This document shows, one piece after another, positions 45,455 to 59,592 of a stretch of 60,047 nt of DNA (position 1 is the first letter of the stretch; each line of letters opens with the position of its first letter). Under the pieces are notes generated by a model. It saw nothing but the letters and a program-made list of their open reading frames with translations, ran no database searches and had not been told where the DNA came from. Position numbers and translations under genes: made by a program. The stretch comes from an uncultured Planctomycetaceae bacterium (GTDB taxonomy: Bacteria; Planctomycetota; Planctomycetia; Planctomycetales; Planctomycetaceae), in NCBI GenBank assembly GCA_903871805.1, contig CAIQIE010000383.1:1-60047 (forward strand). The letters are read 5' to 3'.

Positions 45455-46720
45455 TCATAGGGTCACATGCTGAGCAAACGGGTAATCGACGGGTGTGTAC
45501 TGAATGGCCAGTTCCGGCGTCATGCGGCGCTCACCACCGTTGTGCAGCGACGTCAAAGCCCGATCCAGAATTCCACCCGTCAACAGCGTTCGTTCCACCG
45601 GATAAGTGGGTTTTCCTGAGTGAATCATCTGTTCAATCGCCTTGAGCAGGTAGGCAAAGTGAGGATACTTCGGTTCTGTCCGTTCATCAAACACGCTGGT
45701 AAAAATGGGACGATTGCGGAGGGCAAGGGCCAGCCCGGTTCCTGCAGCACACTGAAACATGAACTGAGCAGCACGCAGCCCATTGTGAAATTCAAACAGA
45801 AAAGCGGCCGCCTGTTCGTCTTTTCGCATGTCAGCGCCCTCGGCCTTCGGCACGGCAGCAAACGCGGCTTCCAGAAGATCACGCCGTACTTCGCCGGAAT
45901 CCACGGCCTTCCACAACTCGTCGCCCTTCAAACCCTGAACCCACTTGACTCCGGTTTCCGCTCCCACACGACGTTCCAGGTGCCATTGTAGAAACTCCAG
46001 CGCGTGAATCCCGTACACATCCAGTCCGCTGTAGCCAATGCCCACGGCACCGTCGATCTGACTTCCCAGCGGAATCGTCTCCGCAGATTTCCTGTGCCCC
46101 ACAGGCAGGGAGGAACCCGCCATAAAGGGAATCTTGAGCTGCCGCGCCCGCTCGTACATCCACAGCCCGTCCTGCCATGCCGGCCCGAGATGCTTGTCAT
46201 TGAAGACCGGAACGACTCGGTCGTACTTTTCAAAGGTAGCAGCAATTTCTTCGAGGAACCTGCGGCGAGGATACAACTGCTGGCCAAGGTCGCTGTAGGG
46301 GTAATCCCCGTGTTCTCCGATGCTGAGCACTCCGTCCACAGGAATCTGACTGCCGCCGACGGTAATCGCTTTCTCAATGGAATCAAAAATCGGGACGCCG
46401 TATTTCTGACTGATCTCCCGCGCAATGTCGTCGGAGGGAAACTGCTCCACATACATCGACGCCAGTTTCAGGGACGGTCCGGGCCCACCCTTTTGATCCC
46501 AGCCTTCCAGGATTTTTCCGAGGATCACATCGGCATGCGAAAATGGCCGATAGATAGTGACGACGGCTGCAACTGACTTCGGTGCCGTGTCAGCGATCGC
46601 TGCCGGGCCGGAGGCAGCCGCTGCAGCAAACGTCGGCCCAGAGGTCGAGTTGCATAACAGAGCTCCGGCAACGGGAGCCGCGGTCAGGCTAAGCATCTGT
46701 CGGCGAGAGAACCGTGTCAT
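45455..46720 (-). CDS. Tat-exported protein of unknown function
   Basis: 421 residues. A twin-arginine-like signal (RFSRRQMLSLTAAPVAGALL) is followed by an Ala-rich region. The mature part has no motif I recognise. It contains HGDYPYSDLGQQLYPRRRF, VVPVFNDKHLGPAWQ, FMAGSSLPVGHRKS and DGAVGIGYSGLDVYG, a pattern that suggests an alpha/beta fold related to secreted Gfo/Idh-like proteins but lacking their EKP motif. I recall conserved planctomycete proteins of this type without known activity. The ATG at 46720 has GGAG 10 bases upstream; a GTG one codon earlier is an alternative. It is probably monocistronic. Confidence 0.8.
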   Translation of the reverse strand: MTRFSRRQMLSLTAAPVAGALLCNSTSGPTFAAAAASGPAAIADTAPKSVAAVVTIYRPFSHADVILGKILEGWDQKGGPGPSLKLASMYVEQFPSDDIAREISQKYGVPIFDSIEKAITVGGSQIPVDGVLSIGEHGDYPYSDLGQQLYPRRRFLEEIAATFEKYDRVVPVFNDKHLGPAWQDGLWMYERARQLKIPFMAGSSLPVGHRKSAETIPLGSQIDGAVGIGYSGLDVYGIHALEFLQWHLERRVGAETGVKWVQGLKGDELWKAVDSGEVRRDLLEAAFAAVPKAEGADMRKDEQAAAFLFEFHNGLRAAQFMFQCAAGTGLALALRNRPIFTSVFDERTEPKYPHFAYLLKAIEQMIHSGKPTYPVERTLLTGGILDRALTSLHNGGERRMTPELAIQYTPVDYPFAQHVTL

Positions 46721-47236
46721 CACTGTCTACTCCGGAAAAAAATGGGGGAGCGGATGGGCGGGAAAGATCGGACGAGAAGGTTGTTCTAAGGTCGCGTCAC
46801 TGCGAAACAGTAAACCGTGCAGGCAGAAAGCACCAGTGAACCCAGCCGAAACAGCGTGTTGCGGCAGCGATATTCGTGCCCGGCAGCATCTCTTCGCGAT
46901 TAGTATTAGAGACGGACGGGGAACCGCGGCCCCTGTCTCCTGATCGGTGATGAACGCGGAAATCCGAAAATGCAAAGGCCCCCTGGTGCCGCCGCGGGGA
47001 TGCCGACTGCCACCGGCGAATGATGGCAAGGCCTTCAGGCAAAAACCCGATGGCGGTCTCCAGCCGCTTCAAGGGCCCATCCGGGAACGCAGAGGCGTCC
47101 CTGATGCCAGGCCACGTCCGGGTCGATTGATCACAAACCAAAAACGCCGAAGGAGCATCAGATGCGTCTGACAGTTCCATTCGGCGTTTTGTGAGTTGTG
47201 ACGTGGCAATGCCAGGATAGCAGAGCCAAATCGGGA
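46721..47236. other. Intergenic region with operon terminator
   Basis: Between the Tat protein gene start and the stop of the EF-hand gene, both on the minus strand. It contains the terminator at 47140-47190. Short frames here are not credible genes. Confidence 0.55.
47140..47190 (-). terminator. Terminator of the two-component/YHYH/EF-hand operon
   Basis: An outer stem of about 11 bp (AAAACGCCGAA / TTCGGCGTTTT) encloses a further partly paired loop. On the minus strand it ends in TTTTT. It lies about 46 bases past the EF-hand gene stop. Confidence 0.75.
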
Positions 47237-48121
47237 TTATTCTGCTTCCGGCCGACGTGGTCGCTCGGGTGGCCCGCCACCTTCACGTGGACCTTCGGGT
47301 CTGTCAGGCCCCGCTCCGCCTGGCCCCTGAGGCCGCTGCCCACGGCCACCAGGCCCGCCTGGTCCACCAGGGCCGCCCGGTCCGCCCGGTCCCTGATGAT
47401 TCGGCATCTGTTGAGCGAACTTCATTAGTTCCTCACGGCTAAGCTTCCCGTCCTTGTCAGCGTCAAATTCCATCGCATGCTCAACGAATCGTTCAGGACT
47501 GGGAGGTCCCATTGGGCCCTGTCCCGGACCACCCTGTCCCCGACCACCAGGTCCCTGCCCCGGGCCGCCAAAACCTCCCGGTCCAGGACCGTCAGGACCG
47601 GGGCCGCCCGGGCCTCGCCCACGCCCCTCAGGACCGCCCGGACCACCTGGCGGTTGGCCGTCAGGACCAGGACCACGTCCACGCTCTTCAGGACCACCCG
47701 GACCTGGTCCACGTCCCTCTGGACCGCCCGGACCTCCCGGCGGCCTGCCAGCTCCTGGCGGACGCATTTCCTCGCGATCCAGCTTGCCGTCTTTGTTTTT
47801 ATCCAGCGTCTGCAGCGATGCCGTCGCTTCTTTGAGTTCTTCTTCGGAGATTTCTCCGTCTGCATTTTTATCGAGCGCAACAGTCAGGGGATGCGGGAAT
47901 CGTGGGCGGCCAGTCTCGCCCCCTTCTCCAGGTGGTCCCGGCGGACGTCCTGGTTCTCCAGGTGGCCCTGGCGGAGGTCCCGGTGGTCGCCCTGGTTCTC
48001 CCGGTTCTCCTCTCGGAGGCCCTGGTGGCGGGCCACCATCGTCACCGGGGGGCTGGGCTGCAATCGAGATCGTCAGCCCCAGCAGCGCCAGCACTGCCGT
48101 AGAGAGCAACATCTTTTTCAT
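47237..48121 (-). CDS. Secreted Gly/Pro-rich protein with three EF-hands
   Basis: 294 residues. A signal peptide (about 1-22) is followed by a Pro/Gly-rich segment (25-75). EF-hand loops are at 84-95 (DKNADGEISEEE), 107-118 (DKNKDGKLDREE) and 220-231 (DADKDGKLSREE), each with the canonical D-x-D/N-x-D-G-x-hydrophobic-x-x-x-E pattern and thus predicted to bind calcium. A long PGG-rich linker (~120-205) separates the second and third, and a Gly/Pro/Arg tail (245-294) follows. It is the last gene of a four-gene operon, 84 bases after the YHYH gene, with AGGAAAGG upstream of its ATG. It may be an extracytoplasmic calcium-responsive factor. Confidence 0.88.
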   Translation of the reverse strand: MKKMLLSTAVLALLGLTISIAAQPPGDDGGPPPGPPRGEPGEPGRPPGPPPGPPGEPGRPPGPPGEGGETGRPRFPHPLTVALDKNADGEISEEELKEATASLQTLDKNKDGKLDREEMRPPGAGRPPGGPGGPEGRGPGPGGPEERGRGPGPDGQPPGGPGGPEGRGRGPGGPGPDGPGPGGFGGPGQGPGGRGQGGPGQGPMGPPSPERFVEHAMEFDADKDGKLSREELMKFAQQMPNHQGPGGPGGPGGPGGPGGRGQRPQGPGGAGPDRPEGPREGGGPPERPRRPEAE

Positions 48122-48205
48122 GGTTTCGCCTTTCCTGATTACGTTCCAAAAACAGGGTCACTCGACAACTTTTCCACCCGGAGATCGTGTCTTTGTTTTT
48201 CTGCG

Positions 48206-49417
48206 TCAGGGATCTTCATCCATGGTCACTCGAAAAACGTCATTGGCTTTGAACACAATCCGCCGATCATTCCCCTTGAATTCAATATGGCAGTCCATTA
48301 GCACACCCACAGAACTGTCTTCCGGGATATTGATTTCCACGGTCACCTGATTGCCTTCGCGCTGAATGGAAGTGGCTTCGAACGGACCTATCTGCACCCA
48401 CTCGGGCACGCCATCCGGCAACGGCGATCGCGTCGCTTTTGCGGGATCCAGAGTCAGCGTCAACCGGTGCTGCTTCCCTCGAACAGCACTTCCGGGAACA
48501 ACAGCTGCGATCACTTTGGGAAGGCGGCTTTCTCCGCTGGCATTGTCCTCGATGGCGCCTTGCTGCAGATTGCGGCCGGGGCCCCGCAGATTTGTCGGTT
48601 CCACCACACCGTGATAACCACCAAGCACGTAAGGAAAGCGACCGGGCGTGGCGTGATAATGATAGCCCCGCTCCTGATCCTGATGTCCGTTGCAGACGTC
48701 CAGGGCTGCGTCGCCGGTCAGATCCTTCGCCATCTGCTTTGCGGATTCCCATGGGCCGTAAACTGGAAAGCCATCAAACGCAAATCCAATAATCGGCGAA
48801 TGCTGTTTTCCGTCGTCTTTGAAGGGAGATTTCACACAGACCGGATACTTGTGATAGTGGTACACCCCTGTCTGCTGAGGATGCCCGCAGCAGGAGTCCA
48901 GCCAGACCTCAGAATAACCAGCCACGGCATTCATTCCGCCCTGCTCAAAGGGATTGAAGAACACGACCCCATTCAGGGCCATTCCAATTGGTCCCATCGG
49001 CAGGCGGGTGATTCGTTCGCTCATTTCAGGTTTCAGGGGAAACCTAAAGCGGAAATTCTGTACCTGTATCGAATTTGGATTACCCGAATTCGGAAAGATG
49101 GCAGTGGGATGATTGGGATACCCCTGACTGTCAATGATTAAACAGGTCTCGTCATGACTGATTCTGATGTTGTCGATGCCGTCTGCATTGGAATCTTTTC
49201 GATGCCAGGAAAACAGATCCAGCCATCGATCAGTATCCTTATAGTAATACGTGACCGGTTGCTGCTGAGAAACATACCAGTGGCCGCCAATCGCCCTGAG
49301 CGTCGCTGGATCCACATCGTCGGCACAAAAGGCAGGCTGGGATGGTGCTGCACAAAGCAGTAGCAGCAACCCACTGAGGGTATTGAAAAGTAACACTCTT
49401 GTCGAAAATGAAAACAC
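48206..49417 (-). CDS. Secreted YHYH-domain protein
   Basis: 403 residues with a signal peptide (about 1-31). The YHYH domain is marked by two histidine motifs, GVYHYHKYP and GYHYHATPG, with GFPVYGPW between them. An N-terminal region contains YYYKDTDRWLDLF, and the C-terminal ~100 residues form a separate domain (VRGKQHRLTLTLDP). The histidine-rich motifs suggest metal binding; activity is unknown. The start is a GTG at 49417 with an excellent AAGGAG site. It lies 12 bases after the histidine kinase stop and 84 before the EF-hand gene, so all are probably cotranscribed. Confidence 0.88.
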   Translation of the reverse strand: MFSFSTRVLLFNTLSGLLLLLCAAPSQPAFCADDVDPATLRAIGGHWYVSQQQPVTYYYKDTDRWLDLFSWHRKDSNADGIDNIRISHDETCLIIDSQGYPNHPTAIFPNSGNPNSIQVQNFRFRFPLKPEMSERITRLPMGPIGMALNGVVFFNPFEQGGMNAVAGYSEVWLDSCCGHPQQTGVYHYHKYPVCVKSPFKDDGKQHSPIIGFAFDGFPVYGPWESAKQMAKDLTGDAALDVCNGHQDQERGYHYHATPGRFPYVLGGYHGVVEPTNLRGPGRNLQQGAIEDNASGESRLPKVIAAVVPGSAVRGKQHRLTLTLDPAKATRSPLPDGVPEWVQIGPFEATSIQREGNQVTVEINIPEDSSVGVLMDCHIEFKGNDRRIVFKANDVFRVTMDEDP

Positions 49418-49429
49418 AAAAAGCTCCTT

Positions 49430-51088
49430 TCAGCTCCGCGATACACCATCGTTCAGCGGGGCTGGTATTCTATTTTCTGATCCATTGAAATTTACAGAAT
49501 CAGCCGCCAGAGGCAATTGAACGATCATCGTGGTCCCGTGGCCCGATTGTGAACTGCAGGTAATCGTTCCACCGTGCGCCTCTGCAAGGCTGCGACAGAT
49601 CGCCAGCCCCAGGCCATTTCCGCCGGTACGACGACTGCGGGCCGTATCAGCACGAAAAAAACGATCGAAGATCCGCGGTTGCTGTTCCTCGGAAATCCCA
49701 CATCCCGTGTCCCGCACAACCAGAATTGCCTGGCCCCGATCAGTGGTCACCTCTACCGAAACCCGGCCATCGCCAGGAGTATATTGCAAGGCATTCTCGA
49801 TCAGATTGACAGGAATTCGTACAAAAAAACGGGGATCCACTCGGACAGGAACGTCGCTCTCCGGGGTAACACAATCCAGCTCAATTCCCAGTTCACTGGC
49901 ATGTCCCTGACACTGAGCAACAGCGTCTTCCACAATCTGCCGCAGGTCCATGTTCTGCAGCTGCAGATCCAGATGTTCGGAATCACTTCGCGCCAGCAGC
50001 AGCAAACCTTCTACCAGCCCACGCATCCGATCCGAAGATTTCAGACAGGTCTGCAGCGTAAATTCATACTCTTCCACTGTGCGGCGTTTTCCAAGTGCTA
50101 ACTCAACCTGCGACTGAATCACCGCAAGAGGTGTCCGCAACTCATGCGACGCATCGGCCGTAAACTGCGTCAGCCTGCGAAAGGATCCTTCCAGCCGTTC
50201 AAATGTCTGATTCAGGACCCTTGCGAGTGGAATCAGTTCTTCGTCCAACAGGGTTGTTTCAATGCGACGATTCAATTGATGCACGGAAATCTGCGAGGCG
50301 ATCCCGGAAATCATGGCGATCGGTCGCACCATTCGCCGCGACAGAAAGTACCCACCGGAAATTCCGATCAGAATTGTGACGGCACCAAGCCCGGCAATAC
50401 AGAATCCGAACCAATGCAGCCCTGTCAGATCCTCTTTCAGCGGTCTGTGAACAAGGATGGTAGAATTCCGCGTCCCACGCAACGTTACTCGAACCGCATT
50501 CTCCACATGTTCCAATCGAAATCCTGTCGAATCCGATTCAGGCCTCTGCAACCCCTCAAGCTGATCTGCGGCCGGCCCCTGACTCTGCAGCAGTCTTACC
50601 CCGTCAGATCGCCAGACCACGAAATCCATGCGATCCGTCTGACGACGTGGGCCACCAAAGGCTCCCTTGAACACCGCAGAGTCCGCTGCGAGGGACTCGA
50701 TCTCCTGACGCCTCTCCAGCGGTCCGCCACGCCCCTGACGATTTGCTCTCGAAGGCGGTCCACCCGGTGGCCCCCCAAGCATTAACTCTGGAGGCAAGGG
50801 CCCCCCTGGAATTCCGCCGCGTATCCATTCCGGGCCAGGTCCCTCGCGATTTGCCGTCGCCCCGTCGCGACCAGGACCACCAATGCCTCCCGGTCCACCG
50901 CCGGGCCCCGGACCCGGTGGCCTGGTCAGCAGATCCAGATACTCGGCAGTCGTCACAGCCTGCCGTATGGCCCGCTCATGCATGTCCCGGTCTGCTCGCC
51001 AGTAGACCAGACAGCCAAACACAATCATCGAGATCGACAGAATCGATCCGTACCAGAACTGCAGGCGGGCGCGAATCGATTTAATCAT
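49430..51088 (-). CDS. Membrane histidine kinase with Gly/Pro-rich sensor region
   Basis: 552 residues. TM1 is at about 12-30 and TM2 at 224-249, with ~195 residues between them outside the cytoplasm. Residues 56-123 there are Gly/Pro-rich and collagen-like (RPPGPGPGGGPGGIGGPG, GGPPGGPP), resembling the linkers of the EF-hand protein of the same operon. After TM2 come HAMP, HisKA with His315 in DASHELRTPLAV, and HATPase with the N-box NLIENALQY, G1 DTGCGISEEQ and G2 GGNGLGLAIC. The ATG at 51088 overlaps the response regulator stop by 8 bases. A longer frame to 51169 would lie inside the regulator and is rejected. The ligand is unknown. Confidence 0.93.
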   Translation of the reverse strand: MIKSIRARLQFWYGSILSISMIVFGCLVYWRADRDMHERAIRQAVTTAEYLDLLTRPPGPGPGGGPGGIGGPGRDGATANREGPGPEWIRGGIPGGPLPPELMLGGPPGGPPSRANRQGRGGPLERRQEIESLAADSAVFKGAFGGPRRQTDRMDFVVWRSDGVRLLQSQGPAADQLEGLQRPESDSTGFRLEHVENAVRVTLRGTRNSTILVHRPLKEDLTGLHWFGFCIAGLGAVTILIGISGGYFLSRRMVRPIAMISGIASQISVHQLNRRIETTLLDEELIPLARVLNQTFERLEGSFRRLTQFTADASHELRTPLAVIQSQVELALGKRRTVEEYEFTLQTCLKSSDRMRGLVEGLLLLARSDSEHLDLQLQNMDLRQIVEDAVAQCQGHASELGIELDCVTPESDVPVRVDPRFFVRIPVNLIENALQYTPGDGRVSVEVTTDRGQAILVVRDTGCGISEEQQPRIFDRFFRADTARSRRTGGNGLGLAICRSLAEAHGGTITCSSQSGHGTTMIVQLPLAADSVNFNGSENRIPAPLNDGVSRS

Positions 51089-51734
51089 GGAGAATGTACC
51101 CCTGACCACGACGCGTCGTAATAAAGTCTCCGCCCAACTTGCGTCGCAGATTCGACACGTGAACGTCAATCAGATTCGAAAGACTTTCCTCGGCCTCCTC
51201 AAACAGATGATCGTAGATCTCCGTGCGACTAACCACCCGACCTCGATGCAGCGCCAGTAGTTCCAGCAGAGCATACTCCCTTGGCGTCAATTGCAACACA
51301 ATTCCTTCACGAGTGACCTGCCGCGACCGCAAGTCCAGCGCCAGCAGTCCGATCTGAATTTCTGACGACGCTTCGCCGGCAGAACGACGAATCAACGCTC
51401 TCAGCCTCGCTCGCAATTCCACCAGATGAAACGGCTTTGTCAGATAATCGTCGGCGCCGCTGTCCAGCCCACGGACCCGGTCCTGAACACCGTCCCGGGC
51501 AGTCAGAATCAACACCGGCGTTTTATGCGTCCTGCGCAGTCGCTGCAGAACCTCCCAACCTGTCAGGCCAGGCATCAACAGGTCCAGCACGATCGCGTCA
51601 TATGCCCACGCGGTGGCCTTATACAAACCCTCTTCACCATCACTGGCCTCATCCACGGCATAGCCGTCCTCACGCAATGCCTGAGCCACAGTGCGGAGCA
51701 GATCCGGTTCATCTTCAACAACAAGAATTCTCAT
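51081..51734 (-). CDS. OmpR-family response regulator
   Basis: 217 residues. The receiver has ILVVEDEPD, phospho-acceptor Asp51 in VLDLLMPG, and the Lys in YLTKPF near 101. The C-terminal winged helix carries LTPREYALLELLALHRGRVV, VHVSNLRRKL and TTRRGQGYIL. It is the first gene of the operon and partners the overlapping kinase gene. Such regulators often control their own operon, so the YHYH and EF-hand genes are likely targets by inference. Confidence 0.95.
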   Translation of the reverse strand: MRILVVEDEPDLLRTVAQALREDGYAVDEASDGEEGLYKATAWAYDAIVLDLLMPGLTGWEVLQRLRRTHKTPVLILTARDGVQDRVRGLDSGADDYLTKPFHLVELRARLRALIRRSAGEASSEIQIGLLALDLRSRQVTREGIVLQLTPREYALLELLALHRGRVVSRTEIYDHLFEEAEESLSNLIDVHVSNLRRKLGGDFITTRRGQGYILHD

Positions 51735-51847
51735 AGCGGGTACACTAATTTCGAATCAAAATTCGACGACTTCCGGCGCAGCGCAAGCCTGAATCCTATC
51801 AGGGCAACCTGAAGAGAGCATGAAGAGGGAAGCAAAGCTGCGGGAAA

Positions 51848-52258
51848 TTATGGGCCGAATTGCAGGTTAACCTGATTTTCAGGGGGGCGCATAAATCCCC
51901 AGGTGGCCGCCAGCGCGTCGGCGGCTTCCTCCACATCCAGGATCTCGCCCCACGGACCGTTCCTCAGAAATGCGTGCGCAAACTCGTGCGCAATCACATA
52001 AAAGGCAAACGCTTCACTGCACAGGTTCAGTTTCGGGCGCAACACAACACAACGACTTCCCTGGCCAGGAGGGCCCGGGGTCGGCATCCATAAGGTCCAC
52101 CCCTGGCCCGGCTGATAATTGTCAATCGTAACCTGAAATCTGGGGTCCCCAAGGAAATCCTGAAGCACCTCGCCCGGAATCAGGTTCAACACCTGAATCG
52201 TCCGGGCATGAAGTGCCGGATACGGTTCCAGATCCTTTATCAGGTCCGCAATACTCAT
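51848..52258 (-). CDS. Small HExxH protein, possible metallopeptidase
   Basis: 136 residues. An HEFAH motif at 91-95 sits at the end of a helix (FAFYVIAHEFAHAF). Glu110/111 follow 15 residues later in VEEAADALAATWGF, a layout similar to ImmA/IrrE-type and other small zincins. No signal peptide was seen, so it is probably cytoplasmic. The start was set at 52258 (ATG) because the upstream extension to 52315 is Gly/Ala-rich without support. The stop of uvrA is 107 bases upstream on the same strand, so cotranscription with uvrA is possible. The substrate is unknown; catalysis is inferred from the motif only. Confidence 0.72.
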   Translation of the reverse strand: MSIADLIKDLEPYPALHARTIQVLNLIPGEVLQDFLGDPRFQVTIDNYQPGQGWTLWMPTPGPPGQGSRCVVLRPKLNLCSEAFAFYVIAHEFAHAFLRNGPWGEILDVEEAADALAATWGFMRPPENQVNLQFGP

Positions 52259-52365
52259 GAATGCCTGCCCCCAAATGCCTGCCCCATTTCCCGACATATC
52301 AGCCCCTGGTGTCACCCCCGGACTGTCGGTTCCGATCCCGGCAATCGTTGCCCCGAAGGACTCCG

Positions 52366-55300
52366 TTATTCTGACAGTTTCGGAAGAACACTCTGCAGAA
52401 ATGCGGCAACATCCTGGGATTTTGCCTGGGCTTCTGTCGTAAACCGAATCCGCACACAGTCCACTCCACGCTCCGCTGAAATCTCCTGCGATGCTCCCAG
52501 CGCCGCAATCGATCCGATCGTTACTTCCCCCGGACGACTATACACACACAAGTCCACACCATCACTGCGTTTAGTCTGCAAATCCGCAATCAGTCGCCCT
52601 GAACTTTCCCGGGTCCAGTTGATCTTCGTGCGAATCTGATAATCCACTTCAAAGGACTGCATTCCCGCTTCCACTTGTGGCAACAGGATCTCCAGCAGAC
52701 CAAATTCCCAGGGAATTCGTCCGTTACCCGGCAACCCTTTGCGCAGCAGATGCCATTTCCGCCCGAGTTTTTTCCAGGGCATCAAGTCGTCGGGGTTCGC
52801 AGACTCCACATGGCTCTGCTTCAGGTACGATTTCGACGCCTCACTGAGAAATTTTCTGAAGGCCGGTGTGGCCACTTCTTCTCTTTTCCAGACTTTGATT
52901 GTCACTTCCTGCCATGCCGTCTTAAGGTTTCGGGCCTTCACTCGAGGCTCCCGGCCATAAACAGGAATCTCCGGCATCTCATCCAGCGGTTTCAAACCCA
53001 GAGCAGCATCGAGGCCCTCTGTCGTAAACGTTTCCTTCTTTACTCGAAAACAAAGCGTCAACAACCATTCCGTCGCTGTGCGAGCGTGAAGAAACCACCC
53101 TAACCCCTTTTCGGCCTTCAATTCCACTGTCGCTCGATCATTCCAGTTGACAGCACCCAACTCCTCAGACTCACTCAGCTGATCCACCACGTACGACAGT
53201 GCCGCGCCTTCCCAGCGACACGGCTGACCAGTGTGTGCAATTCGATCCTCGATGTGCCACTTTCGTCCATCCGTTTCCCACGGCAGCTTTGCCGATTTTC
53301 CCAACTGCTCGACCGTCACGTCGCCAGCACGCTTCGCCGCAACCTCCGTCGCGTCAAACGTCTGAATTTCCCCAACCCGCGACTCCTGAAGGACCGGTGC
53401 CAGTAACTCGCCCGTCCACGAACGAAGCCTGACCGATTCTGTCGTGGCACCTGAGCCGGAAGGTCCCGTTTCCCGCTGCTGTGCCGCCGCGGAATCCGCT
53501 GCCCTTCCAGCATCAGCCGTCGCATACGCCACAACCTCTTCCGGTGTCCCCTGAACGACAATCTGGCCACCCCCGGCGCCCGCCTCCGGCCCAAGGTCAA
53601 TAATCCAGTCTGCCGTCTTGATGACATCCAGATTGTGCTCAATCACAACTACGGTGTTGCCCTGCTCCACAAGACTGTTCAAAACACTCAGTAACTTCAG
53701 AATGTCGTCAAAGTGCAGGCCAGTGGTGGGTTCGTCCAGCAGATACAGCGTGCGCCCACGATTCGGTCGACACAACTCTGCCGCCAGCTTGATTCGCTGC
53801 GCTTCACCGCCACTTAACGTCGGCGCCGACTGACCCAGGGTCAGGTATCCCAGACCAATCGCATCCAGAGTCGCAAGCGGTGTTCGAATCTTCGGCAGAC
53901 TGGAGAACAAATCCAGCGCCTTGCTGATCGACATCTCCAGCACGTCCGCAATACTGCAGTCGTTAAAACGCACAGTCAGGGTCTCGGCATTGAACCGACG
54001 ACCGCGACAGGTGGGACATTCCACCCAGACGTCAGGCAGAAAGTGCATTTCGATCTTCTTCTGCCCCATGCCTTCGCAGTCTTCGCAGCGGCCACCCGCC
54101 CGATTGAAACTGAACCGCCCCGGTCTGTAGCCACGAACTTTTGCTTCCGGCATCCGACAGAACAGTTCCCGAATCTCGTCGAAAACTCCGACATAGGTTG
54201 CCGGATTGGAGGCCGGTGTGGTCCCGATGGGATTCTGATCCACAATAATGATCTTGCTCAGATGTTCCACACCGCGTAGTTCCTGGAACACCCCCGGCGC
54301 TTCCGTCGTGATGTTCAGCCGACGTGCCACAGCGGGCGCCAGCGTATTCATCAGCAGTGAACTTTTGCCAGACCCGCTGACCCCCGTAATGCAGGTCAGT
54401 GTTCGCAGCGGGATTCGCAAATCCACGCTGCGAAGATTGTGCTGCGATGCCCCCAGAAGCTCCAGAACCTCCGCCGGACGCTGAACCAGCGTCTTGATTT
54501 CAGTAGCCTTCTCAGCCCCCACAGATTTCTTTGCCGCCTTGCGGCCACGTCCGGCCTTTGTAACCACAGGCTCAGAACGCCTCAGATCATCCGCCACTAC
54601 CTGTGTCAACAAAAATCCATGGCCGGATTTTGCATTCCGATCCAATTCTACACGCCGACGAGACGGCAGCGGAATCGAACGTGCACCACTCAGATAGGCT
54701 CCCGTCAACGAATCCGCCGACTTTTGTTTCAATTCCTCCGGCGTGCCCTGAGCAACAATCGTTCCCCCCAGCCGTCCAGCCCCCGGCCCAAAATCATACA
54801 GCCTGTCCGCCGCATCCAGCACTTCCCGGTCATGCTCCACCAGCAACACAGTGTTGCCAAGATCCCTCAGTCGCTTCAGTGCCGTAATCAGCCGCCCATT
54901 GTCCCGCGGATGCAGTCCAATCGTGGGTTCATCAAGTACATACAACACCCCGGTCAGCGAACGCCCCGCCTGTCCCGCCAGACGAATCCGCTGCGATTCT
55001 CCACCGGAAAGTGTCGGCATCGATCGGTCCAGCGTCAGATAGTCCAGCCCCACCTCGACCAGGAATCCCAGCCGATGAGTAGCCTCGTTCAACAGGTCTC
55101 CCGCAATCTTCTTTTCCGATCGACTGAGCTTCAACCCGTTTAGAAACGACAACGCCTCCGCTAAGGGCATGCGACACAGCTGCGGCAGTGTCACATGACG
55201 CAGCCGCACCGCAGCCGCTTCTTCCCCAAGACGACTGCCACTGCACACCGAACAGTCCCGCTCACCCGCCATTTCCATCAGTGAACGCCGGTGCGCAAAC

Positions 55301-58300
55301 GACAACCGCGATGCGTTCTCGATGGCCGGATACAACCCCCGATAGCGAAATCGAAACGGCGCGATGACGGAATCCGGTGCGGCTTTACTGCCCATACGAC
55401 GCTGACGGTCAGCCGAAATCTCCACCCATTTGTCTTCGTCCCCATACAACACCAGACGCTGCTGCACAGGAGTCAACAGGTACCATGGCTGATCCAGCGG
55501 CAGCTCAAAGGTCTCGGCCATCGCTTCCAGCAGCATTCGAAAGGCCGGATTCGTTTTGGGATCCGGCCACGCCCCCACCGCACCGTCCAGCAGCGTCCTC
55601 TCCGGACTGGTGACCAGCAACGACTGATTTGCTCCAAACTCTTTCCCCAGACCTTCACAGCTCTGACACCAGCCCAGCGGACTGTTGAAGGAAAATTTCT
55701 GGGGCGCCTGCGGTTCAAAGGAACGCTGACACTTGCCACATGACAAATGCAGACTGTACCGCTGCACTTTCCACTGAGACTCTTCCTTTGCACTATCGGA
55801 AATCGCCGTCTGAATGACGCCCCGACCAAAATCCAGAGCCGATTCCACCGAATCGGCAAGCCGCGTTCTCTGTTTGACATCGACACTGATCCGATCCACC
55901 ACGACCGCGACCTGATGCTGACGTCGATGATCCATCTCAGGCACATCCTCCAGCCCGTGGGTCACACCGTCAATTCGCACTCGCGCAAACCCCTGCCCCC
56001 GCAGTCGCTCCCAAACCCTGCCGAACGGTATGCTGCGATCAGTCTCCAGCGGGGCCAGCAGTAACAGCTTCGTTCCCGCTGGATGCTGCAGAATCGCGTC
56101 CACAATCTGGTCCGTCGTCTGCTGAACCGCCGGCACGTGGCATGCCGGACAGTGAATGACACCCATCCGCGCATACAGCACTCGAAGATAGTCGTAAATC
56201 TCCGTCACGGTCCCTACCGTCGATCGCGGCGTCGCGCCCACCGTCTTCTGCTCAATCGCGATCGCCGGGCTTAACCCCTGAATACTCTCCACCTTCGGCT
56301 TGGGCATCTGACCCAGAAACTGCCGAGCATAGGCCGAAAGACTCTCGACATAACGCCGCTGCCCCTCCGCATACAGTGTGTCCATCGCCAGTGATGTCTT
56401 TCCGCTTCCACTGGGACCGCAGAAAACACTCATTTTCTCGCGAGGTATCTCCAGATCGACCTTTTGCAGGTTGTGCTGACCAGCACCCGAGATGCGAATC
56501 CTCTGGCTCAGCACAAATGGATCCGCCTTGGCCTTCGCCGTTTTTCCGGCAGCCGTCGCCTTCTTTCGCTGAAATCCGGGCAACACGGTTCGTAACGCCA
56601 GACCAGTGTGCGACTGGTCGCACTTTGCCACCTGCTCCGGTGTTCCCTGAGCAATTATGCGGCCGCCGCCGGATCCCCCCTCCGGGCCAATGTCAATCAG
56701 CCAGTCCGAGGTCTTGATCACATCCAGATTGTGCTCTATCACAATCACCGTGTTACCAGCCTCCACAAATCCCTGCAATACCTCAATCAATTTCTTCACA
56801 TCCGCAAAATGCAGACCCGTGGTCGGCTCGTCCAGCAAATACAACGTCTTTCCCGTCGATCGCTTCCCCAGTTCCCGCGCCAGCTTGATTCGCTGCGCCT
56901 CTCCACCAGACAGTGTTGGCGAGGCCTGCCCCAACTGCATATAGTCCAGACCGACGTCGCGAAGTGTCCTCAGCATCTGCGTAATCTTCGGGAAACTTTC
57001 AAACAACTGCAGCGCGTCCCGAATCTCCATGTTCAGTACGTCCGCAATACTGCGGTCCCGAAAACGCACCTCCAGCGTTTCCCGATTGAAACGCCGGCCC
57101 TCACAGACACTGCAGGGAATCCAGATGTCCGCAAGGAAATCCATCTCCAGCTTCGTCGCCCCATGCCCCTCACACGCTTCACAGCGACCGCCCTCCACGT
57201 TGAAACTAAAGCGGCCCTCCTTATAGCCCCGCAGCTTCGATTGCGGCATCTGCGTGAACAATTTGCGAATCTCATCAAAGACTTTGACATATGTTGCTGG
57301 GTTCGATCGCGGTGTGCGACCAATCGGTGACTGATCAATGTCAATCGCCTTGTCAATCAGCTCTAACCCATCAACCCGTTCATGACGCCCAGGCTCACCA
57401 TTCCCTTCGTTGACTTCGCGATTCACAACCTGCCACAGAATATCATTCACCAGGGAACTCTTGCCGGATCCACTGACACCAGTGACGCTGATCAGACGCC
57501 CCAGGGGAAATTCGGCCGTCACGCCTTTCAGATTGTTATGTGTCGTATTGTGAACGATCAGGCTGCCACGATCCGGTGCTCGACGCTGCTGCGGAATCTC
57601 AATCGTCTGACGACCCGACAGGAACTGCCCCGTCAGACTGCGTTCGGATTTCAGTACGTCTTCCACTTTGCCTTCAACAACCACTTCGCCGCCCAGAATT
57701 CCCGGGCCCGGGCCAAAGTCCACAATGTGGTCAGCCGCGCGCATCGTCTCCTCATCATGCTCAACGACGATGACCGTGTTCCCCTGATCCCGCAGACGCT
57801 GCAGACTTTCCAGCAACATCGTGTTGTCTCGCGGATGCAATCCAATCGAAGGCTCGTCCAGAATGTACACAACGCCCACCAGGCCACATCCAATCTGACC
57901 CGCCAGCCGAATCCGCTGCGATTCTCCACCGGACAACGTCGGAGCCGAACGGTCCAGTGTCAGATAGTTCAACCCACACTGCATCAGAAATCCCAGCCGC
58001 CCGCGAATCTCCTTCAATGCCTCCTCGGCAATCAGCGCCTGCACGGGATCCAGGACCAGCGACTCAAAGAATTCCACCGCCTCTTCCACAGCCAGTGAAC
58101 ACACCTGCGGCAAACTCATCTCCGCCGTCTTCCCGCGTTTCAGATACGCTTTGCCCGAGGTTCGCAGTCGCACGTTTCGAGCCTGCCGATTCAGACGCTC
58201 GCCCATGCAACTCGGACATGTGACCACCTCCATGTACTTTTCCAGCTGCCGACGTCGCATGGGATTCGCCGCTGTCCGATAAGATTCCAGCAGGCGATTC

Positions 58301-59592
58301 ACCCATCCTTCCCACTTGCCACCATGCTTCCAGCCGCCGCCACGACTTCGCCAGGTAAACGTCACATGCCGCTCACCCGTGCCGTACAACCACAAATGCT
58401 GCGCTTTCTCTGGAATGTCCTGCCACTTCATCTTCAACAATGAATCCACTGGTAAGCCGCAGTCCTCTTCGATAGCGTTGGCAGCCCCCACCAGCAGATG
58501 TCGAGGCCATCGCCCCATCTTCGTCCATTCCAGCAACAGCAATGCGCCCTTCGGAATCGCCTTGCTGCCATCCACAATCATCTGCTCCAGCGGAAATCCG
58601 TGCCGCATCCCCAGCCCGTTGCAGTCGGGACACATTCCCAGCGGGCTGTTGAAGCTGAACAGCTGCGGACTCGGAGGCTCGTAACTCATCCCGCTTTCCG
58701 CACACGAATACCGCGCGCTATACAAACGGTCTGTGGCTCTCTGGACGGCCGCAGGCTGCTCCGCCACCATCTCCGCTGCACCAGCATTCGCCCTTGAAGC
58801 TGCCGCATCCCGACGCGTCACGGCAGCCGCGGTGTCTTTTCGAGCCGCCCCCGAAGCTTCCGTGGCGTCCACACTGCAGATCAATCGACCGTCCGCCAGC
58901 TTCAATGCCTGCTCAACCGCCTCTGCCACTCGAGTCCGCTGATTACTGCCGGCAACAATTCGATCAATCACCACATCAATCGTGTGCTTATGGTGCCGCC
59001 GCAGCGTCGGGGCGTCCGCCAGACTGATCATCTCACCGTCAACACGAGCCCGCAGATATCCCTTCTTCATCAGGTCTTCAAACAGATCCCGAAATTCTCC
59101 CTTCTGATTTTGCACCACAGGGGCCAGAATCTGAAAACGAGTTCCCGTGGGGTGACTCATCAGACTATCGATGATCTGATCCGTCGACTGCGCCTGAATC
59201 GGCTTCCCGGAGAGATAACAATAGCCCTGTCCCGCCCTCGCAAACAGCACTCGAAGATAGTCATAGATCTCGGTGATGGTACCAACCGTGCTGCGCGGAT
59301 TTCGACTGGTAGACTTCTGCTGAATCGAAATCGAAGGCGCCAGCCCGCTGATTGCATCCACATCCGGTTTGGGCATCTGACCCAGAAACTGACGCGCATA
59401 CGTGGACAGCGATTCGACGTAGCGACGCTGACCTTCTGCATACAGCGTGTCAAACGCCAGAGAACTTTTTCCCGAACCACTGACCCCTGTCATGACAATC
59501 AGTTTGTTGCGGGGCAGTGACAAATTGACGTTACGCAGATTGTGCTCGCGAGCGCCACGGATAACGATGTCCGAACTGGTCATGGAGTTCAT
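52366..59592 (-). CDS. uvrA: Tandem double UvrA (excinuclease ABC subunit A) with a duplicated C-terminal extension
   Basis: 2408 residues, about 2.5 times a normal UvrA (~940). Copy 1 covers ~1-1015 and copy 2 ~1031-2030, so four ABC nucleotide-binding domains. Walker A lies near 35 (GVSGSGKSS), 706 (GVSGSGKSS), 1061 (GPSGSGKTS) and 1739 (GVSGSGKSS). Signatures [12 protein letters not shown] or [12 protein letters not shown] and Walker [10 protein letters not shown] or DEPTTGLHF recur in all four, so all look active. In copy 1 the first zinc module has lost a ligand (SCAESG where copy 2 has SCGKCQ). Residues ~2030-2408 are an extra region with two similar units marked GRKWHIEDR and GRKWHLLRK about 167 residues apart. 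UvrA recognises DNA damage with UvrB, normally as a dimer; this chain would be a fused dimer. The ribosome-binding site is weak. Confidence 0.93.

Follow-up and report, generated by a model that had tools for sequence, protein, structure and literature searches.

A candidate self-regulating two-component regulon with YHYH and EF-hand proteins in a planctomycete contig

Closest described systems and the four-gene locus

CpxP and ZraP are periplasmic feedback adaptors of their kinases. The locus studied here lies in a 60,047-nucleotide stretch of an uncultured Planctomycetaceae bacterium (assembly GCA_903871805.1, contig CAIQIE010000383.1, our contig C383 of genome G000), called the window below, and holds four minus-strand genes for a response regulator (RR), a histidine kinase (HK), a YHYH protein, and a Gly/Pro-rich EF-hand protein. 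It resembles CpxA/R-CpxP and ZraS/R-ZraP in the RR-HK pair and, in some relatives of the window, in a small exported LTXXQ-family protein adjoining that pair. It differs from them in that EF-hands are joined to the LTxxQ part or replace it, and the window's own protein gave no LTXXQ match; an accessory role for this protein is suggested by analogy.

PmrA/PmrB and other OmpR-type systems likewise combine an OmpR-type RR with a HAMP/HisKA-type kinase. In the accessible part of PMC3973317, the PmrA box is given as CTTAAG-N5-XTTAAT. The window locus shares with PmrA/PmrB a tandem direct-repeat box with an 11-bp period, and PmrA (NF007928) was the best NCBIfam model for its RR; unlike PmrA, the RR stayed below the model's cut-off (215.6 bits vs 330), the half-sites are CTTCA and CTTMA, and the targets are different. 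For Pseudomonas aeruginosa, the accessible part of the source describes a calcium-linked two-component system (CarSR) and an EF-hand protein (EfhP) in one organism. Their likeness to the window set is one of description, and no operon or box of the window type was found for CarSR/EfhP in that part of the source. Nothing on such a system was found in the open-licence PMC literature; a description elsewhere may exist.

The four genes are probably the core of a two-component regulon that is conserved in planctomycetes, resembles PmrA/CusR systems, regulates itself, and comprises predicted exported metal-binding and redox proteins. Where genes of these kinds are not linked, in related bacteria, the shared box again precedes them, so one conserved control circuit is very likely.

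The OmpR/PhoB-type RR (217 aa, 51081-51734, minus strand) scored 102.6 bits for Response_reg (cut-off 30.2) and 77.2 bits for Trans_reg_C (cut-off 26.2). The membrane HK (552 aa, ATG at 51088, 49430-51088, minus strand) scored 58.6 bits for HisKA and 107.7 bits for HATPase_c, both above the Pfam cut-offs, which places it among class I histidine kinases; HAMP was detected only below the Pfam cut-off (18.5 vs 25 bits). The YHYH protein (403 aa, GTG at 49417, 48206-49417, minus strand) matched PF14240 with 91.6 bits (cut-off 25) over profile positions 2-112 of 193. The Gly/Pro-rich EF-hand protein (294 aa, 47237-48121, minus strand) has an N-terminus that looks like a signal peptide by eye, and its predicted EF-hands matched EF-hand_5 in three stretches with 56.8 bits (cut-off 25.9). 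RR and HK overlap by 8 bases, HK and YHYH are separated by 12 bases, and YHYH and EF-hand by 84 bases. An intrinsic terminator with a hairpin and T run (47140-47190, minus strand) closes the set, giving −32.2 kcal/mol and a z of −6.57 vs shuffles. The spacing suggests a single operon. The earlier note on this DNA had described the four genes, the overlap, the gaps, and the terminator; its coordinates were exact, the hairpin is strong, and Pfam assigned all four proteins above cut-off as it had named them. A simple promoter and terminator scan of the window listed neither the RR promoter nor the 47140-47190 terminator.

Promoter box and predicted regulon

Before the RR gene, a tandem repeat and −10 element was found at 51793-51825, which the earlier note missed. 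The box CTTCATGCTCTCTTCAGG (51808-51825, minus strand) is the predicted RR site, and the predicted −10 element TAGGAT (51793-51798, minus strand) follows it. Alignment of the seven window-clade RR upstream regions gave a single conserved block, CTTCAyGyTgnCTTMAGG, followed after 9-11 bases by TAnnAT. The strict pattern CTTCA-N6-CTTMAGG fitted six of these seven loci, and L104 departed once (ATTCAGG). Its CTTAA-like half-sites stand head-to-tail 11 bp apart, the predicted PmrA-type geometry according to the accessible part of PMC3973317. Activated promoters of the OmpR/PmrA type are laid out in this way, with two half-sites of this period and then a −10 element.

The strict pattern showed 49 matches in 2.98 Mb of examined loci. 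Among 48 matches checked, 38 preceded YHYH (15), EF-hand (12), or RR (11) genes; both counts include overlapping loci. Three of the other ten lay outside the open reading frame (ORF) sets, five preceded other genes upstream of kinase pairs, and two (L279, L099) were chance-like. The strict box was present at most 3.2 kb upstream of the RR in 11 of 39 non-training kinase loci, or in 17 of 46 once the training loci are counted, and in none of the 45 control loci; the controls were all 45 other listed OmpR-type regulators of ten genomes, some of them in loci cut by contig ends. Ten of 77 loci had the box no more than 450 bp from the conserved core of YHYH, compared with 0.09 expected at the background rate and none for the reversed pattern. 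A matrix built from the seven RR promoters reached at least 18 bits in 14 of 77 YHYH windows and in 0 of 2168 background windows. In operons with EF-hand before YHYH, the box precedes the EF-hand gene (e.g. L156, L162, L167, L169).

Box and −10 element together gave 19 matches in 18 chosen genomes, vs 1 for the reversed control. In 120 family genomes there were 31 matches in 21 genomes, vs 14 in 13 genomes for the reversed control; the 31 include four training promoters. Twelve of the 31 stood at the start of a two-component operon or of the gene just before it, five before YHYH genes elsewhere (three placed by coordinates), and one before a lone three-EF-hand gene (G100). PQQ genes, amine-oxidase genes, and haem peroxidase genes (in G069 a partial frame only) each accounted for two, and DUF1559 genes for four (one by Pfam, three by eye). 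The remaining three had no target. The matches in G020, G119, and G081:C169 were taken as chance and not as targets, the last lying antisense within an 800-aa frame that is Hsp70-like by eye.

The window genome contributed three such matches, before the window operon, a PQQ gene (C305), and an amine oxidase (C346). The C305 gene is 73% identical to the PQQ gene beside an EF-hand gene in G053, and a relative of the C346 oxidase in G101 (57% identical) is also found behind the box. Four strict matches in this genome (C61, C136, C299, C302) were set aside as chance, being without a −10 element or a plausible gene. The G100 EF-hand protein aligned with that of the window over 32 residues only, in the third loop (63% identity), as may be expected for such repetitive proteins. 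From their sequences, most regulon products look exported and either metal-binding or redox-active.

Presence of the box was associated with presence of the RR. An RR at E <= 1e-60 was found in 19 of the 21 genomes with box and −10 element and in 3 of the 13 with the reversed pattern. Across the 120 genomes, YHYH and RR occurred together in 20, YHYH only in 7, RR only in 11, and neither in 82, the 27 YHYH genomes having been selected by hand. The box-RR and YHYH-RR associations persisted when the window's genus was left out (p = 8e-10 and 5e-9, respectively). Fisher tests on related genomes overstate significance, and the values after collapse to 58 genera (p = 1.7e-4 and 1.2e-5, respectively) are fairer.

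Some genes near the box were noted in passing. DUF1559/prepilin-like genes stand behind it in G083 and G114 (L331, tested; L332, L336, and L337, by eye). Animal haem peroxidase genes were observed next upstream of RR-HK (L216:8302-10203) and behind the box (L333:2-1408). In L243, L247, L328, and L335, a Gly/Pro-rich protein with a weak OB-fold match lies behind the box, just before RR-HK.

Gene neighbourhood and the EF-hand and YHYH proteins

The earlier note had tied its grouping to a conserved neighbourhood in related genomes, with co-occurrence within 3 kb in planctomycetes as the check. Of 80 named YHYH loci 78 were scored, two being lost by ORF choice; those with close relatives are planctomycete records, e.g. 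Planctomycetaceae, Pirellula, Schlesneria, and Planctomicrobium. An EF-hand gene, counted when it had at least two EF loops, was present within 3 kb of YHYH in 35 of the 78 loci, and another 17 loci had none but a short flank. Of the 458 genes within 3 kb, 35 were EF-hand genes, and of the 387 beyond 4 kb, one was (p = 9e-9). Each of the 35 reads in the same direction as YHYH; 28 lie downstream of it and 7 upstream. Related YHYH loci do not count as independent, and some of the named ones coincide with unnamed contigs (L107/L069, L108/L079, L169/L093, L125/L072). The RR of the pair lay within 3.5 kb in 9 of the 78, and most of the scored YHYH loci have no such pair at that distance. A PQQ-propeller gene often joins the set as a third neighbour.

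The four-gene block is one among several arrangements. The order RR-HK-YHYH-EF was seen in the window and in L069, L079, L102, L103, L104, L106, and L101 (its YHYH by tblastn), and the order EF-YHYH-RR-HK in a second family (L093, L221, L226, L231). In L138, EF-hand and RR genes are divergent from YHYH and a PQQ gene. G081, of the window's genus, keeps RR-HK-EF, and its genome gave no YHYH match. Linkage is kept across genera and in the second family, so the absence of a conserved neighbourhood, which the earlier note had named as a refutation, was not borne out.

Seen from the kinase, 48 of the class's 198 genomes held relatives at E <= 1e-60, with 51 matches in all, and the 40 loci surveyed cover 41 of these matches. 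Eight of the 40 had a same-strand EF-hand gene no more than three genes away from the kinase pair (L211, L215, L221, L222, L226, L228, L231, L238); in L222 the ORF caller had over-extended the frame that ends in the EF-hand gene. In the 45 control loci, the called genes up to 4.5 kb away showed no EF loop. The 79 near neighbours of kinase pairs included 7 with EF-hand_5, 5 with LTXXQ (E<=0.001), 4 with YHYH, and 4 with PQQ_2, and for 70 control neighbours none of these four was among the best 25 of 95 families. Because of these neighbour controls and the box controls, chance clustering was ruled out. What both modules have in common is the EF-hand (or LTXXQ) gene.

The loops of the window protein, DKNADGEISEEE (47837-47872), DKNKDGKLDREE (47768-47803), and DADKDGKLSREE (47429-47464), all on the minus strand, fit the canonical EF pattern. 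Partners with three loops, such as this protein, form type A; type B has two loops and a conserved hairpin, LPPFvrdxLxLTxxQ...ILTxeQ. In L212-L214, L218, and L227, an LTXXQ-type Gly-rich protein occupies the place of the EF-hand partner. For PF07813 (cut-off 24.3), L218 scored above (28.2), L212 just below (23.5), and the EF-type L226 below (13.5). A loose LTxxQ text pattern also matched 14 of 45 control loci and was therefore dropped as evidence; only Pfam matches and the aligned hairpin were used, which excluded L219 and L232 (loose pattern only). Compared with solved structures, the EF-hand protein profile matched EF-hand proteins, with no Spy/CpxP name among the best 60 of 334. The EF/LTXXQ partner pattern suggests a Spy/CpxP-like accessory protein. 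As relatives carry an LTxxQ-like hairpin or an LTXXQ-family replacement, the EF-hand protein would most likely be a kinase adaptor, and it may act as a periplasmic co-sensor.

Six residues of the YHYH protein (D174, H179, Y186, H187, H189, D215; window protein numbering, alignment column + 39) were invariant in 71 diverse YHYH sequences, and 21 aligned orthologues showed 58-66% identity to the window protein. The accessible part of PMC7824862 describes the YHYH domain (PF14240) with three His and one Asp as a predicted Zn-binding metal-dependent hydrolase, and the invariant D174, H179, H187, H189, and D215 fit this description. That paper concerns phage tail proteins, whereas the window protein is cellular, with an Ig-like C-terminal domain and a two-component box. 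A first structure model had low confidence across the domain (mean pLDDT 57), and one built from a diverse alignment reached pLDDT 93. It gave no match to solved structures (best E 0.35), nor was one found by sequence, and the fold was dropped as a guide to function. Against viral models it gave six matches at E<=0.001, four of them named YHYH and two nameless. The C-terminal part was Ig-like in the models, with no specific relative found. YHYH is probably an output of the system, a Zn-dependent hydrolase as predicted by others.

Alternative explanations, predicted mechanism, and flanking genes

Several results weigh against the self-regulating regulon. RR and HK stayed below the NCBIfam cut-offs for PmrA and the metal-sensor families. 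The strict box was absent in 28 of 39 non-training kinase loci, 12 of 31 RR genomes had no match to box and −10 element, and these matches exceeded the reversed control only about twofold in raw number, their strength being in placement. Seven of 27 YHYH genomes lacked an RR at E<=1e-60, and 26 of 78 YHYH loci with both flanks long enough had no EF-hand gene within 3 kb. The window's EF-hand protein showed no match to LTXXQ (PF07813) at E<=0.01, and the type-B hairpin stayed below Pfam's LTXXQ cut-off. The related genomes are not independent.

It is quite improbable that the genes are adjacent by inheritance only and that the box belongs to another, unrelated regulator. Related genomes do keep gene order by descent, and EF-hand motifs are frequent (2-21 strict matches per genome in ten genomes), but the set is kept in different gene orders and the box co-occurs with the RR. 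In the tree of RR and kinase core, the window clade formed one group (100/100), and the second family's YHYH-linked kinases were placed elsewhere. The AU test rejected one clade of both YHYH-linked kinase groups and close relatives with p = 0.025, under a simple model and for a group named after the tree was seen. A sign test of YHYH vs EF-hand on the kinase tree was set aside, as there were too few independent pairs. Also unlikely is a CusS/CopS-like kinase that senses copper, silver, or iron directly, with EF-hand and YHYH proteins as targets only, outside sensing. The heavy-metal sensor and regulator families were next best and the membrane-proximal sensor part is common to the heavy-metal family, but TIGR01386 (253.7 bits, cut-off 292.55) and TIGR01387 (210.5 bits, cut-off 279.2) were both below cut-off, no conserved His, Met, or Cys was seen in the periplasmic part across 19 aligned kinases, and no efflux gene was seen adjoining the window's RR-HK. 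CusS-type direct metal sensing was rejected as family membership on the missed cut-offs and because no conserved ligand residues were seen.

On a third reading, which follows a suggestion of the earlier note, the EF-hand and YHYH proteins would make up a calcium-dependent surface or matrix structure that the system would sense or build. The canonical EF loops, the probable export of the products, and the haem peroxidase and DUF1559 (pseudopilin-like) genes among the box targets of other genera are in its favour. The window operon, however, has no linked structural gene, and the regulon members are mostly enzyme-like or binding-protein-like. This reading is unlikely. The note's gene grouping held, with conserved linkage and a common box; its sensing and surface mechanism gained only partial support. 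The 'shared sequence character' that it cited is weak evidence, because the Gly/Pro-rich part of the kinase was a variable periplasmic insert in the alignment of 19 sensor regions.

In the self-regulating regulon, the membrane kinase would phosphorylate the RR, which would then bind the tandem box CTTCA-N6-CTTMAGG directly. The second half-site stands in the −35 position, and the RR is predicted to activate rather than repress. By binding and activating its own box, the RR would switch on its own operon, hence positive autoregulation. Its further targets of activation, at other places in the same genome or in those of relatives, would be genes for YHYH, EF-hand, PQQ-propeller, and flavin amine-oxidase proteins. 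YHYH and the other products, with signal peptides judged by eye, probably act outside the cytoplasm. The EF-hand protein may feed back on the kinase as a periplasmic adaptor whose ligand would be a cation such as calcium; given the canonical EF loops, calcium would be a fair first guess.

More tentatively, the EF-hand protein could be a calcium-switched counterpart of CpxP/ZraP, in which an EF-hand module, fused to a Spy-like LTxxQ hairpin or standing in for it, reports the state of periplasmic calcium or matrix to the kinase, the kinase driving a YHYH/PQQ/amine-oxidase envelope programme via the PmrA-type box. If true, this possible scheme would be a dedicated planctomycete calcium-sensing two-component architecture and would for the first time place the cellular YHYH domain in a physiological setting. 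The regulon itself turns four uncharacterised neighbours into genes with a predicted DNA site, whose function is testable with one promoter reporter. The YHYH domain, called 'enigmatic' in the accessible part of the one paper found on its function (PMC7824862), gains a regulatory context in cellular organisms. The results also suggest that planctomycete EF-hand proteins may take part in two-component signalling.

Three further minus-strand frames flank the operon. A 155-aa protein with a HEFAH motif and no Pfam match (51848-52315) ends 113 bases before the RR, and the upstream ends of L103 and L104 resemble it by eye. Beyond the terminator lies a 422-aa protein (45455-46723) that Pfam did not match and whose N-terminus looks Tat-like by eye. 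A 2408-aa frame (52366-59592) holds two tandem UvrA copies, with two UvrA_inter and two UvrA_DNA-bind stretches.

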